Shown here piece by piece: positions 46,917-51,295 of a stretch of DNA of 56,998 bases. The stretch lies in assembly GCA_937922045.1 (NCBI GenBank), contig CAKZXA010000071.1, positions 1-56,998 of the forward strand. The letters run 5' to 3'. The position numbers and the translations under genes were made by a program. Origin of the DNA: an uncultured Acidimicrobiales bacterium (GTDB taxonomy: Bacteria; Actinomycetota; Acidimicrobiia; Acidimicrobiales; SZUA-35). The notes beneath the pieces are model-generated. The model was given only the letters and a program-made list of their open reading frames with translations. It was not told the DNA's origin and made no database searches. Position 1 is the stretch's first letter. Each line of letters begins with the position of its first letter.

Positions 46917-48242
46917 TCACGCCGGAGGGTTCGATCTGAGCTGCTCTAGTACGGTGAAATAGGTGGGGAACGTCTTGTTTACACACCGTGGACCGGCGAT
47001 CTCGATGCCATCGTGAACCAGGCCTAGCAGGGCAAAGCTCATCGCCATTCGGTGGTCGTCATAGGTCTGTACGACACCCGGCCGGGCGACTCCTGGGTAC
47101 ACGATCAAGCCGTCGTCGGTCGCTGTTGCTTCGATGCCCCGTCGATTCAACTCAGCCACGGTGGCTGCGATTCGATCGGTCTCCTTCCGCCGAATAAAGC
47201 CAATCCCCGTCATTTCGGTCGGGGTGCTGGCGAATGAGGCCACAACGGCGAGGGTCTGGGCGGTGTCGGAGATGTCGCTCATGTCGACCGAGGTCCCTCT
47301 CAGTTCACCGGTACCAGCAAGGCTTGTCCAGCCCGGTCCTGTCTCTACGGTTGCGCCCATCTGTTCGAGAACCCGGGTGAACGCCAGATCGCCTTGGACG
47401 GTCGATGAGTCGAGGCCGTTGATCCGCACCGTGCCTCCGGTTATGGCGGCAGCAGCAAAGAAGTAGGACGCCGCTGAAGCATCGGGCTCGATTGAGAACT
47501 CGGCGGCCTGGTAGCGTCCAGGACGGCACTCGAACCGCTGGAAGTCGCCTACCACCTCAACGTGTTGACCGAACCTGGCCATCGTGTCGATAGTCAATGC
47601 AACGTAGGGTTTCGACACCAGGTGCCCATCGACCTCGATCGAAAGCGGCCCGCTCATGAGAGGCGCGGCCAGCAGAAGCCCGGAGAGGAACTGTGAGGAT
47701 GTCGAACCCTCAATCTTGATCTTGCCGCCGGACAGCACATGTCCATCGATCAAGAGGGGGAGACCGCTGCCTTCTATGGCGGCACCCAGTTGACGCAAGG
47801 CGTCGAGCTGAGGACCGAACGGGCGAGATCGGAGTTGGGGATCACCATCGAGCCGGAAATGACCAGCCAGCGTCGCCAGGACAGGGAGCACAAAACGGCT
47901 GGTGGTCCCCGATTGGCGGGTTCGTACATCGACTATCTGACGGGAAACATGCTCTGGGCTGTCTAGCGGCCCATTCGATGCAGCGCCGCCTGATAGGCCA
48001 TCGGATCGCGGCCCATGCGGAGCAGAGCCATCGATCACCACCGTGCCGCCAGGTCGCCGATCCACGCCAACTCCTAATGATCCGATCACACCTAGCATGG
48101 CCTCGGTGTCATCGGCGATCAGCACCCGATCTAGTACCGATTCTCCATCGGCCAGTGCGGCGCAAAGCAAGGCGCGGTTGGTATGGCTCTTTGAGCCCGG
48201 CAACTCGATAACGGCGACCGGTGGCCGCTCAAGAGGGTTCAT
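46917..48242 (-). CDS. aroA: 3-phosphoshikimate 1-carboxyvinyltransferase (EPSP synthase)
   Basis: The enzyme joins phosphoenolpyruvate to shikimate-3-phosphate in aromatic amino-acid synthesis. Visible: GSKSHTNRALL with the PEP-binding Lys, the region RQSGTTSRFVLPVLA, SSQFLSGLLLAAPL, and DDHRMAMSFAL near the end. The choice of ATG 48242 (441 residues) rests on AGGAA 9 nt upstream; an in-frame GTG at 48263 would add 7 residues. The gene lies alone here, without other shikimate genes. Confidence 0.94.
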   Translation of the reverse strand: MNPLERPPVAVIELPGSKSHTNRALLCAALADGESVLDRVLIADDTEAMLGVIGSLGVGVDRRPGGTVVIDGSAPHGPRSDGLSGGAASNGPLDSPEHVSRQIVDVRTRQSGTTSRFVLPVLATLAGHFRLDGDPQLRSRPFGPQLDALRQLGAAIEGSGLPLLIDGHVLSGGKIKIEGSTSSQFLSGLLLAAPLMSGPLSIEVDGHLVSKPYVALTIDTMARFGQHVEVVGDFQRFECRPGRYQAAEFSIEPDASAASYFFAAAAITGGTVRINGLDSSTVQGDLAFTRVLEQMGATVETGPGWTSLAGTGELRGTSVDMSDISDTAQTLAVVASFASTPTEMTGIGFIRRKETDRIAATVAELNRRGIEATATDDGLIVYPGVARPGVVQTYDDHRMAMSFALLGLVHDGIEIAGPRCVNKTFPTYFTVLEQLRSNPPA

Positions 48243-48338
48243 CCTCAGTGATTCCTGCGTCACCAGACAATGGTGCCAGACAACCGGCGACTTTGCTCCG
48301 ACTTCCGCCGCCTATTGGCGAGCGTTCGCCGGCGAAGG

Positions 48339-49022
48339 CTAGGCGATAATCGGACGAGCGGTGATGACCACGTTGGCCTCGTAGGACCGCTTGTTTGGAT
48401 CGAACGTTCCGCCACACGTGATGAGCTGGAGAACCGGTTCTCCCTCCTTGCGGAAGAGCTCCTCCGCTGGAAGCTCGCTCTTGTCATATTGCGTGTTCCC
48501 AGTGACCTGGTAGACCAGCGTCGAACCATCGCTCATGTCCACCTCGAGGCGGTCGCCTTCGCGGAGTTCTCGAAGATTGAAGAACGCCCCAGGGCGACCT
48601 CCATAATCGACGTGGGCTGCGAGGACCGTAGCCCCTGCGGTGCCGGGAAGAGAGCTGTACTTGTACCAGCCGACCGTGTCGGCCGCTGGCACAGCAAATC
48701 GGTTCTCCTGATCCACCCCAACCGACAGGACGGGAGCGTCAACGTTGATATCGCCAATGCGAACCGAGACGGGCCGAGCAGCTTCCGCTGACTCGGAGCT
48801 GCCCTGTGTTTGCTCCGACAAAAGACCGGAGCGAACCGGCACCTTCGCCTCGACAGCATTCTCGGTGCCAAGAGCGTCCAGGCTGCCATCCTCGATGACC
48901 TCTGAAGCCAAGGTGGCCGCATCCGAAGACGAGGAAGTATCGCCCTCAGCGTTGACCGCGGCGCCAACCGTAGCAAGCGCCATGCTCAGCAGCAGGACAC
49001 CCGAGAGGATGCGTTGGTTCAC
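48339..49022 (-). CDS. Class F sortase
   Basis: A 227-residue sortase with an N-terminal signal or anchor (residues 7-25) and a Ser/Glu-rich linker. The catalytic set is complete: His137 in AAHVDY, Cys203 in ITCGG and Arg212 in KRSYEANVV. The spacing and the IGDINVDAPV start of the barrel fit class F, the actinobacterial group that anchors proteins to the cell wall. Its ATG overlaps the stop of the pseudokinase/DUF4397 gene by 4 nt (ATGA), so they are co-translated. That partner ends in a sorting-signal-like tail and is the obvious first substrate. Confidence 0.9.
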   Translation of the reverse strand: MNQRILSGVLLLSMALATVGAAVNAEGDTSSSSDAATLASEVIEDGSLDALGTENAVEAKVPVRSGLLSEQTQGSSESAEAARPVSVRIGDINVDAPVLSVGVDQENRFAVPAADTVGWYKYSSLPGTAGATVLAAHVDYGGRPGAFFNLRELREGDRLEVDMSDGSTLVYQVTGNTQYDKSELPAEELFRKEGEPVLQLITCGGTFDPNKRSYEANVVITARPIIA

Positions 49023-51295
49023 AACACCTGACTGCGGCGATTGAGTAGAACACCACCACCGGCTGCCATGAAGGCTGCGAGCAGACCCAACATGATCAGA
49101 CCAGTCTGGTCATCGTCCATATCGAGCAGGCCGCCGGTTCCGGTCGGTACGTCGACCGGAGCCGTCGCCAGACCGGTGTAGCGCTGGATGACCGAATCGA
49201 TCGTGTCACCCGTTCCAATGATCGTCATCGACGCCATCTCGCCATCACCGAGGTTGATTACTGCCTCTTGGACCACGTTGCCGTCGCCATCGCTAGCGAC
49301 GAGCGTGTGGGAACCAGCAGCCAACGATGTGGTGAAGGTAGAGCCCGGTTGAACCGTGCCGCCGGCAACGGTTTCGCCGTCGATAGCAAGATTGACAGCC
49401 GATGCTCCAGCGAGGTGGCGAATGACCAGTCGACCCTTACCGGGGTCGACGAGATCGAAGTTCTCGACAAAGGCAGACAGCATTGGATTGCCATCAGCGT
49501 CGTAGTGGGCAACGATTGTCGACGGCTTCGAGCCGACGCTGATCGATCCGCTGACGACCGGAGAATCGGTACGGTCGGCGGCTGCGGCAGCGGCTGTTTC
49601 AGCTGCAGCGTAGAGGTCGACCTGATGCGTTCCCGCTGTCAGATTGGCGGGACCAGCAATGGCGCCCGGGGTAAACCCTGGTACGAGGGCCTCACCATCG
49701 ACGTAGAGATCGACAGGAACACCTGGGACGCCGTGCACGAGCTGGAAGCCAGCCTCATCGGTAGAGAGAGGACCCTCGACGAACGTGGCTTGTGGAGCAG
49801 CTTCGACCTCGGGCTCCGCCTCTGTTGTGGTCGTTGCTTGCTCGGAAGTCGTCGTTGCTTGCTCGGAAGTCGTGGTTGCTTGGTCGGTGGTGACCGTCGA
49901 TGCTGATGCAACATCCTCGCCGTTGTTCTCGTCAGCCTGGTCAGTAGCCTGTTCGACTACAGCAGAGGCGACATCGGGCGTATCATCGCTACCGCTGAGG
50001 AGGTTCCAAGCGATCACGGCGAGACCGGCAGCCAGAATGGCGCCGAGAAGGAGCCCAGCTCGGTTCGAGCTTTTCTGGGGCTGATACGTGCGATCCAGAT
50101 CGACGGTCTGAGCTGCCGCAGGCACCTCGTACTCCTCGTCGAGCTCAACGTCTCGCGCTGCCTGGGAGTATTGCGTTGAATCGAAGTTTGATGCCTCTTC
50201 GACGTCTTGAGCGTCAACTTCCTGGGTGATCTGACGGGTCACCGATGCATCGTCGACCAGGTCGGCGGCCTCGGCTTCGGTCAGTTCGTCGACGATCGGC
50301 GACTCTTGTTCGAGATCGACCCCGGCCGCAACAAAGTCGGCATTTTCGAGATCGAGGTCAGCGTCGGCATCAACATCATCGAGTTCGAGCCCAGCGTCGG
50401 GACCCAGATCGTCGACGTCATCGGTGAGGGCTGAAGCAGCACCGGCTGCGACACCGACTCCGGCAACACCAGCCACGCCAAGGCCAGCGGCTCCAAGACC
50501 AAGCGACGAGTCGCCGGTTACTTCAGAACGGGTGTGACCAGCAACGGCGCTGGAAGCGGTTGAGCCAACATCGTTGGCCTCTGCCGTCGGGATAAAGGCT
50601 GGTCCGTACGTGCGCCGATTCTCGCCGAGGGCTTCAGCCAGGATGCTGGCGAACTCTAGGGCGGACGGAGGGCGAGCTTCGGGAGTGTCCGAACCTGACC
50701 ACATAATAAGGCGTCGCACCGAACGCGGTACGTCCTCAAGGGCATCGCCAAGGGAAGCCTCAAGGATCTTGCCGAGAGAGTACACATCCGAACGCTCGGT
50801 GGCATCGCCACCGTTGCGAACCTCGGGTGCCACCCAATGGGAGTACTCGACGCGAGGGCTGCCACCGAGTCCAAGACCGATACCGCTAACCGCGACATCG
50901 TCGTCGACGACAAAGATCTGGTCGGGAGACAGAGCACCGTGGAATAAGCCACGGAGATGGGCTTCGTGTGTTGCCCGGGCTGCGGCTTCGGCCACACCGG
51001 CAACATCAGACCAGTCGGAGCCGGCCGGGATACGGTCGCCTAGAGTCGGCGCATTAACCGCGGGCGTAACGGCGAAAGGCTTGCCGTCGCTCGAAACATC
51101 AGCATCGATGACAGGTACAAGACCTGGCAGGTCCGCCGACTGGCGGAGCCTTCGTAGATGGGCACGATCCCATCGATCATCGGAGCCGACCGTGACATCA
51201 ACAACAGCGACGTCATCGGCAAGCCGTAAGCGATCAAAGCCATACCAGGCCGACGCCGCTACCGAGTCTTCCGCTGTCTCGTCTTGTGTGTTCAC
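49019..51295 (-). CDS. Pseudokinase membrane protein with DUF4397-like outer domains
   Basis: The 758-residue protein has an N-terminal kinase-fold domain (about 18-225) that keeps APE (156-158) and SDVYSLG (169-175) but has lost catalysis: no VAIK lysine, HGALSPDQ (119-126) in place of HRDLKPxN, and SGIG in place of DFG. Then come a Gly/Ala-rich stretch (265-290), an acidic linker (292-400), a membrane helix (413-434), a Thr/Glu repeat linker and one or two DUF4397-type domains (about 515-700). The end is VPTGTGG, a hydrophobic helix (731-751) and NRRSQVL, which resembles a sortase signal. GGAGG precedes GTG 51295. It probably links the wall and the cytoplasm; the ligand is unknown. Confidence 0.78.
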   Translation of the reverse strand: MNTQDETAEDSVAASAWYGFDRLRLADDVAVVDVTVGSDDRWDRAHLRRLRQSADLPGLVPVIDADVSSDGKPFAVTPAVNAPTLGDRIPAGSDWSDVAGVAEAAARATHEAHLRGLFHGALSPDQIFVVDDDVAVSGIGLGLGGSPRVEYSHWVAPEVRNGGDATERSDVYSLGKILEASLGDALEDVPRSVRRLIMWSGSDTPEARPPSALEFASILAEALGENRRTYGPAFIPTAEANDVGSTASSAVAGHTRSEVTGDSSLGLGAAGLGVAGVAGVGVAAGAASALTDDVDDLGPDAGLELDDVDADADLDLENADFVAAGVDLEQESPIVDELTEAEAADLVDDASVTRQITQEVDAQDVEEASNFDSTQYSQAARDVELDEEYEVPAAAQTVDLDRTYQPQKSSNRAGLLLGAILAAGLAVIAWNLLSGSDDTPDVASAVVEQATDQADENNGEDVASASTVTTDQATTTSEQATTTSEQATTTTEAEPEVEAAPQATFVEGPLSTDEAGFQLVHGVPGVPVDLYVDGEALVPGFTPGAIAGPANLTAGTHQVDLYAAAETAAAAAADRTDSPVVSGSISVGSKPSTIVAHYDADGNPMLSAFVENFDLVDPGKGRLVIRHLAGASAVNLAIDGETVAGGTVQPGSTFTTSLAAGSHTLVASDGDGNVVQEAVINLGDGEMASMTIIGTGDTIDSVIQRYTGLATAPVDVPTGTGGLLDMDDDQTGLIMLGLLAAFMAAGGGVLLNRRSQVL
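49833..49888. repeat. 21-bp tandem repeats
   Basis: Two full copies and a partial third copy of a 21-bp unit encode the TTTSEQA repeats in the linker. Confidence 0.88.

Follow-up and report, generated by a model that had tools for sequence, protein, structure and literature searches.

We analysed a contig of 56,998 nucleotides (CAKZXA010000071.1, contig C71; hereafter the window) from an uncultured Acidimicrobiales bacterium, whose assembly of 4.88 Mb is 97% complete, and identified on its minus strand a gene pair encoding a 758-residue membrane protein with a predicted pseudokinase domain and DUF4397 outer domains, and a class F-like sortase. The larger protein is ordered as a kinase-fold domain, a linker, a transmembrane helix, a stalk rich in Thr and Glu, a pair of Ig-like domains (DUF4397) and a tail made up of VPTGTGGL, a helix and Arg-Arg, while the start of the sortase gene overlaps the upstream stop by 4 nucleotides. 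Both open reading frames (ORFs) and their overlap lie where an earlier sequence-only reading of this stretch had placed them. Comparison with related genomes gives good support to a dedicated sortase-substrate pair, and as a whole the observations are best explained, with a somewhat better than even chance in our estimation, by a two-gene anchoring system in which a cytoplasmic pseudokinase would share one chain with a covalently wall-linked outer end. The features of the locus are as follows.

49019-51295, minus strand: pseudokinase-DUF4397 gene, ORF of 758 amino acids, GTG start
50591..51295, minus strand: predicted pseudokinase domain, residues 1-235 (kinase alignment spans 5-228), with HGA for HRD and GIG for DFG, APE and SDVYSLG kept
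50054..50590, minus strand: low-complexity linker, residues 236-414, predicted cytoplasmic, of varying length among relatives, with an Ala/Gly-rich hydrophobic patch at 265-283
49997..50053, minus strand: central transmembrane helix, residues 415-433, hydropathy 2.29
49748..49996, minus strand: Thr/Ser/Pro/Glu/Asp/Ala-rich stalk, residues 434-516
49466..49747, minus strand: first Ig-like beta-sandwich (DUF4397), residues 517-610
49175..49438, minus strand: second Ig-like beta-sandwich, residues 620-707; the DUF4397 match stops at 636 and a weak BiPBP_C match (619-676) is below cut-off
49127..49150, minus strand: VPTGTGGL at residues 716-723, the predicted sorting motif; across the family the consensus is [VI]P[TS]G[DNT]S[GN]L, and all 33 tails share Gly719 and Leu723
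49022..49126, minus strand: C-terminal hydrophobic helix (731-757) and basic end (NRRSQVL), residues 724-758, predicted sorting signal
48339-49022, minus strand: class F-like sortase gene, 227 amino acids, GTG start, with an N-terminal hydrophobic stretch and His137/Cys203/Arg212

Conservation of the gene pair, its tail and its sortase

Within the family, which consists of uncultured Acidimicrobiales and of which 39 genomes were searched, the fusion is present in 33, being in one frame in 29 and having its halves at contig ends in four (G107, G235, G310 and G319). It was not seen in the remaining six (G017, G166, G254, G291, G311 and G312). The sortase is the next ORF on the same strand in all 33 cases. 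With the earliest possible start codon used, the distance is -4 in 24 cases, and in the remaining nine it falls within -56 to +45. The gene order that the sequence-only reading had described as a sortase operon, and had proposed to look for in other actinobacteria, is thus a recurrent one. That reading had named homologues lacking both sortase and tail as evidence that would speak against it; all 33 C-terminal parts carry both, counting the tail variants VDSG (G191) and IPAG (G323). Because gene order and tail type recur together in 33 genomes, they go beyond chance. A contig scan with the single 758-residue sequence returned no relative, while the family alignment returned 14, all metagenome-assembled, 13 of them assigned to Acidimicrobiales, Acidimicrobiia or Acidimicrobiaceae and one to an actinobacterium.

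The layout expected of a sorting signal, with a motif followed by a hydrophobic helix and basic residues, is found in the window and in its relatives, which supports the earlier comparison of VPTGTGG, the helix and NRRSQVL to a sortase signal. The motif starts 39-46 residues from the C-terminus, and the 33 tails read, position by position, V/I in 33, P in 32, T/S/A in 24/8/1, G in 33, D/N/T in 16/11/6, S in 30, G/N in 22/11 and L in 33.

NF033748, the class F sortase model, is the best NCBIfam class for the window sortase (150.2 bits, E 3.5e-44, the next family reaching 4.6e-8), and all 33 partner sortases match it, none with a better E-value than that of the window. His137 and Cys203 are present in 33 of 33 and Arg212 in 31 of 33, with LITCGG around the Cys. 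The catalytic residues given in the sequence-only reading are therefore in place, and its class F assignment stands as the best class but under the curated cut-off, for which reason we prefer the label class F-like. A third sortase match of the same genome lies in a 482-amino acid open frame on another contig (L050, G000:C32:87000-98000).

The fusion-partner sortases form one clade, opposite 42 others across one branch with an approximate likelihood-ratio support (SH-aLRT) of 85, below the starred level of 95, and the sortases of secreted DUF4397 pairs fall outside that clade. In 30 standalone DUF4397-sortase pairs of the order the prevailing tail is VNTG[ND]SP[VI] (18 have N at position 2, 26 have T, all 30 have G and 22 have P at position 7), and among 12 pairs from the wider phylum VP is found in eight and G at positions 4 and 7 in all 12. 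Two loci that repeat others (L055 and L056, of L025 and L020) were dropped from the sortase tree and motif counts and L029, with an ORF distance of -131, was left out; the standalone row L017 (TISGLGPA) in the counts is a mis-pick by the script, its tail reading AVVTGNTDP. Since the fusion-partner clade has its own motif and the standalone pairs another, sortase type and motif type change together. Both motif types occur in the genome of the window, one in the fusion on C71 and the other in a secreted DUF4397 pair on contig C4 with VNTGDSPI and a sortase of its own.

A DUF4397 gene next to a class F-like sortase is not special in itself. Among 40 standalone DUF4397 loci examined, two of them repeats, a sortase lies alongside in 33; the ectodomain profile matched 70 of 397 genomes of the order; and in the phylum, where 29 loci were taken as the best of 47 matching genomes among 346, a sortase is within the flank in 12 of 27, two having given no ORF by profile. 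The secreted DUF4397-sortase pair is the widespread form, and what is new here is the front end of pseudokinase, transmembrane helix and stalk together with a sortase clade that has its own motif. One fusion in the ancestor of the family, with the sortase carried along, would be the simplest history.

The pseudokinase profile (E<=1e-22), run over 298 genomes of the order, matched eight of the 12 family genomes that were sampled and, apart from these, a single remote locus in G171 (7.1e-24). The ORF in question (L212, G171:C250, 1-747, minus strand) is kinase-like and truncated at the end of its contig; it has HGALSP where HRD would stand, yet keeps the IK Lys and DFD, and is possibly an intermediate between kinases and the pseudokinase family. 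One order-wide scan for fusions outside the family scored three candidates per genome and is confined to the matches listed, so that its negatives are weak. A long frame outside the family, in G250, has 1463 amino acids, is very GC-rich and was read at its ends only.

Several loci depart from the common arrangement. In G299 (L167, G299:C53, 2349-5021, minus strand) an 890-amino acid ORF combines two parts, first a DUF4397 region that carries VPSGNSGL and a hydrophobic helix and then, in the same frame, a class F-like sortase domain (TLITCGG), after which the bases are masked; substrate and sortase in one frame would be a Rosetta-stone hint of their link, with separate starts possible. Four DUF4397 proteins of 556-619 amino acids (L107, L108, L109 and L115) end in a different C-terminal domain, with ends of the YW...RL type, instead of a sorting tail, and no sortase ORF was seen in the flanks examined. 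The ORF at 46917-48263 (minus strand) of the window, which we take to be aroA from the string GSKSHTNRA, has counterparts close to the pair at 12 of the 21 loci scanned, a set in which some places are apparently counted twice; this proximity probably reflects shared ancestry of the site rather than function.

The pseudokinase domain, ectodomain and topology

On the evidence of conserved residues and a structure model, the N-terminal domain is a Hanks-type pseudokinase, in which the kinase fold is kept and the catalytic and metal-binding Asp residues are lost throughout the family. In the window APE (156-158) and SDVYSLG (169-175) are retained, HGA (119-121) stands at the HRD position and GIG (138-140) at that of DFG, and no VAIK Lys was seen. 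None of the 32 family rows with letters at these positions retains the HRD Asp or DFG, a count read by eye in which row G303 is gapped; HG[AGS] takes the place of HRD, and APE and the helix-F Asp are preserved. For alignment A2 the string HG[AGS][LIF] was used to find the segments, so that the invariance of His-Gly in that alignment is partly by construction, and the count by eye is independent of it. To judge from these residues, phosphorylation by the normal mechanism would be impossible.

Single sequences reveal little of this relationship. The Pfam kinase score of the window is 11.2 against a cut-off of 23.1 bits, a single-sequence Pfam scan of its domain gave no kinase family at E 0.01, and PF00069 (Pkinase) matches 12 of 33 family members at E<=0.01, the window not among them. 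The family sequence profile aligns with PknB at E 2.6e-13, and the structure predicted for residues 1-238 from a 33-row alignment is that of a protein kinase (mean predicted local distance difference test score 91.3, predicted template modelling score 0.88). In structure comparison the matches listed include PknA (Z 21.5, root-mean-square deviation 3.4, 217 residues aligned), PknI and PknB, and Foldseek relates the model to PknB at 3.3e-11. The window residues, the family profile and the fold model together bear out the sequence-only description of a kinase fold with APE and SDVYSLG kept and the VAIK Lys, HRD Asp and DFG lost.

Two further kinases encoded in this genome, L116 and L117, retain both DFG and the HRD Asp, and Pkinase matches 24 other places in it, so that loss of activity belongs to this pseudokinase family and not to the kinases of the organism generally. 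A kinase-like ORF of 989 amino acids with THGAVMP for HRD (L174, G000:C128, 1860-4829, plus strand) is apparently a second, different pseudokinase of this genome.

The ratio of nonsynonymous to synonymous substitution rates (dN/dS) for the pseudokinase is 0.024-0.164 over eight pairs of relatives, values that are rough given dS near or above 1 in several pairs. It is lower than that of the ectodomain in seven of the eight (the exception being G300-G302) and lower than that of the linker in all eight. This order of the parts is credible despite the rough values because plain identity agrees with it, the pseudokinase sharing 60-81% identity with the window in a 15-row clade and the C-terminal 258 residues 26-54% across the family. 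Such conservation points to a domain under purifying selection rather than one in decay. Thr237, in the string PAFIPT just behind the domain, was considered as an MviN-like phosphosite; it is invariant in the 15 nearest members and not kept in distant ones, and we make no claim for it.

A central hydrophobic peak precedes the stalk in all 29 full-length members (hydropathy 1.59-2.78). Lys and Arg number three in the 17 residues up to its start and none in the 15 after it in the window; in the 24 members correctly measured there are 1-5 ahead of the helix and 0-1 behind it, which supports the central transmembrane helix of the sequence-only reading, with DUF4397 on the far side. No 19-residue peak above 1.6 occurs before residue 265 in the window, so that a hydropathy scan shows no signal peptide. 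In the first of two such scans the wrong segment was taken as the central helix of G302 and no stalk was returned for G308, G304, G300 and G306; the central peaks of these members appear in the second scan, whose lower threshold hides some linker patches that the first lists. Stalk length is 78-212 amino acids in 24 members measured (78 in the window by the borders of the script), and secreted relatives have 10-21 residues between the signal-peptide-like core and the start of DUF4397 in 28 of 29 measured, with 76 in the other.

The outer domains predicted in the sequence-only reading are confirmed as DUF4397 (PF14344) by a score of 48.9 bits over residues 518-636, above the Pfam gathering cut-off of 30.6. 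In the structure model two Ig-like domains are followed by a low-confidence stretch containing the motif and by a 27-residue helix. The nearest structure matches of the ectodomain, the outer domains of PepT1/2 (E 3.5e-6), are to be read as sharing the Ig-like fold only, with no functional inference.

Proposed anchoring mechanism and alternatives

We propose that the N-terminus of the larger protein stays inside on membrane insertion, so that the pseudokinase would be cytoplasmic and the stalk and two Ig-like domains would lie outside. The class F-like sortase would then recognise [VI]P[TS]GxS[GN]L just ahead of the C-terminal helix, and from the sequence comparisons it is very probable that the tail is recognised by the adjacent enzyme. 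The cut would probably fall after Thr718, between T and G, and the new C-terminus would be joined to the wall or to a wall precursor, the wall being the expected acceptor from what sortases generally do. With the central helix retained, a single membrane-spanning chain would have one end in the cytoplasm and the other covalently bonded to the wall. The pseudokinase would most likely serve as an inner-side docking platform that reports wall attachment or state, or holds a wall-synthesis factor at the anchoring site; docking is the default role for inactive kinase folds, and MviN offers a precedent in wall control. We infer the cleavage site, the acceptor, the retained N-terminal helix and the docking role.

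A number of observations weigh against this proposal. The sortase score of 150.2 bits is below the curated class F cut-off of 166, and deletion of all four class F sortases of Actinoplanes missouriensis gave no phenotype, according to the part of PMC13251363 available to us. The curated sorting-domain model NF058571 (GVDTG_CTERM) gives the window tail 20.8 against a cut-off of 29 bits and, at E<=0.01, recognises three of the 33 tails. Written as a degenerate DNA pattern, the motif matches 29 places in the genome against 27 for a reversed control, which is chance level. The Ala/Gly-rich linker patch at 265-283 reaches a hydropathy of 1.81 over 19 residues, patches of at least 1.6 occurring in nine of 29 full-length members, the window included. 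The C-terminal helix is weak in G302 and G303 (<1.6 in both scans), and the central helix reaches 1.59 in G300 and G302.

A covalent tether between wall and cytoplasm follows only if the central helix is kept. Nothing that we saw suggests cutting, and we hold an intact helix to be somewhat the likelier state. On that footing the protein could be a covalent wall-to-cytoplasm receptor, its outer end bonded by the sortase and its inner end a pseudokinase platform through which wall attachment, tension or loss is read inside the cell, a reading to which we assign slightly less than an even chance. Less likely, at a rough guess one case in several, is that the ectodomain becomes linked to the wall and a further cut, in or close to the central helix, frees the pseudokinase fragment as a report of secretion and anchoring. 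In favour of this, the secreted relatives, which have a signal-peptide-like start at the same place, are proteins of wall type, the long stalk is a plausible protease target, and transmembrane signalling via cutting in a helix is described for RsgI factors in the accessible part of PMC12203970; a six-row alignment, however, shows no stretch of stalk or central helix conserved beyond composition.

It is improbable that the tail is a mere second membrane anchor and that the neighbouring sortase serves other substrates. Such a role would suit a tail that lacks LPXTG and scores below the curated sorting-domain cut-off, and the motif pattern alone, at 29 places against 27 for the control, has no discriminating power. 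The anatomy behind the motif does discriminate. Among the 29 pattern matches read, only the window tail goes on to a strongly hydrophobic stretch and Arg-Arg, with the match 43 codons before the stop; its mean hydropathy is 2.15, and the next value is 1.49 among the seven tails of 25-70 residues for which hydropathy was computed, the other 22 matches lying nearer to or farther from a stop or having none in the stretch examined. Variant motifs such as VDSG or IPAG, which the pattern would miss, aside, this tail is the single visible substrate in the genome for the fusion-partner sortase, as far as sequence can tell. The linkage in 33 of 33 genomes, a Gly and a Leu that never vary within a C-terminus that otherwise diverges, and a motif type that follows the sortase clade argue for a dedicated pair, not a bystander sortase.

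Equally improbable is an acceptor other than peptidoglycan, with the sortase cross-linking DUF4397 proteins to one another or to a partner surface protein in the fashion of a pilus. Class C sortases take part in pilus assembly, according to the part of PMC13251363 seen, and the genome also has a secreted DUF4397 protein with its own sortase, yet the window sortase scores as class F, not C (E 3.5e-44 against 1.2e-5). Still more remote is a topology in which the patch at 265-283 also spans the membrane and the kinase-like domain lies outside, an arrangement suggested by the hydropathy of that patch and of its counterparts in other members but opposed by its Ala/Gly-rich composition, its weakness beside the central helix (1.81 against 2.29), the lack of a window peak above 1.6 ahead of it, and the single middle peak above 1.6 in the remaining members (for example G214, G071, G139 and G273).

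Comparison with known systems

The claim that no system with this gene order has been described agrees with the open-access literature searched. No paper joining class F sortase and DUF4397 was found in that literature, whose coverage leaves out most subscription journals and bioRxiv, and a search for pseudokinase with sortase gave no such system as judged by titles and the starts of abstracts. The word sortase is absent from a 2025 review of bacterial pseudokinase families (PMC12599244), and no bacterial receptor of covalent wall-to-cytoplasm build was found in the same open-access search. According to the part of PMC13251363 available, it is not known what class F sortases do physiologically, and two srtF neighbours were set aside there as containing no known pentapeptide; the functions of bacterial pseudokinase families are likewise described as unknown (PMC12599244, in part). 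The present family would offer a class F sortase natural partner substrates, a predicted recognition motif and a predicted cleavage site, testable with one enzyme and a peptide. Provided that the N-terminal helix is retained, the family would further supply a built-in covalent strut between the wall and a cytoplasmic pseudokinase, a concrete and testable job for bacterial pseudokinases, and if the covalent receptor reading is true the attachment, tension or loss of the wall would be read directly inside the cell.

The closest relatives in build are the secreted actinobacterial pairs of DUF4397 protein and class F-like sortase, which share the DUF4397 domains, a TG-type motif, the hydrophobic helix, a basic end and the adjoining sortase. 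They differ in their signal-peptide-like start, in having neither pseudokinase, central helix nor long stalk, and in a motif that within the order is mostly VNTG[ND]SP[VI]. The PASTA kinases PknB, StkP and Stk1, which are among the nearest solved fold relatives, likewise have a kinase fold inside, one helix and outside domains. They are active and bind wall fragments non-covalently through PASTA domains, whereas the 758-residue protein is predicted to be inactive and to be covalently bonded. It has no PASTA match in Pfam at E<=1 and scores 26.5 against 450 bits with the NCBIfam PASTA-kinase model.

The pseudokinase of MviN (MurJ) in Mycobacterium, which is marked by PknB, bound by FhaA and placed in the ActPs3 family, resembles the present domain as an actinobacterial kinase fold without catalytic residues, with a short activation segment and a link to wall metabolism (PMC12599244, in the part available). 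It differs in being part of the MurJ/MviN protein, and that part of the source mentions no sortase in connection with it. Compared with the printed motifs only (Table 1 of PMC12599244, seen in part), its pattern VALT / Lsidhpsr / Y-- is not matched by HGALSPDQ and GIG here, and with a motif differing from that of MviN we claim no membership of ActPs3. MviN was not among the best 50 structure matches listed and may stand further down. The two clear MurJ ORFs of the genome (548 and 565 amino acids) show no pseudokinase on reading, which was done with no profile run and leaves two weaker matches unread, and are too short for a fused one; this is compatible with the idea that the present gene replaces the pseudokinase of MurJ and is no evidence for it. 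The MurJ-type parallel drawn in the sequence-only reading holds in role and not in build.

The RsgI anti-sigma factors of Clostridium thermocellum also combine an inside regulatory part, one helix and an outside sensor, but signal by proteolysis and, in the part of PMC12203970 available, have neither sortase nor kinase fold. Sortase-substrate pairs and transmembrane pseudokinases are thus each of a known kind, and there is a real chance that the device combining them is a new kind of receptor.

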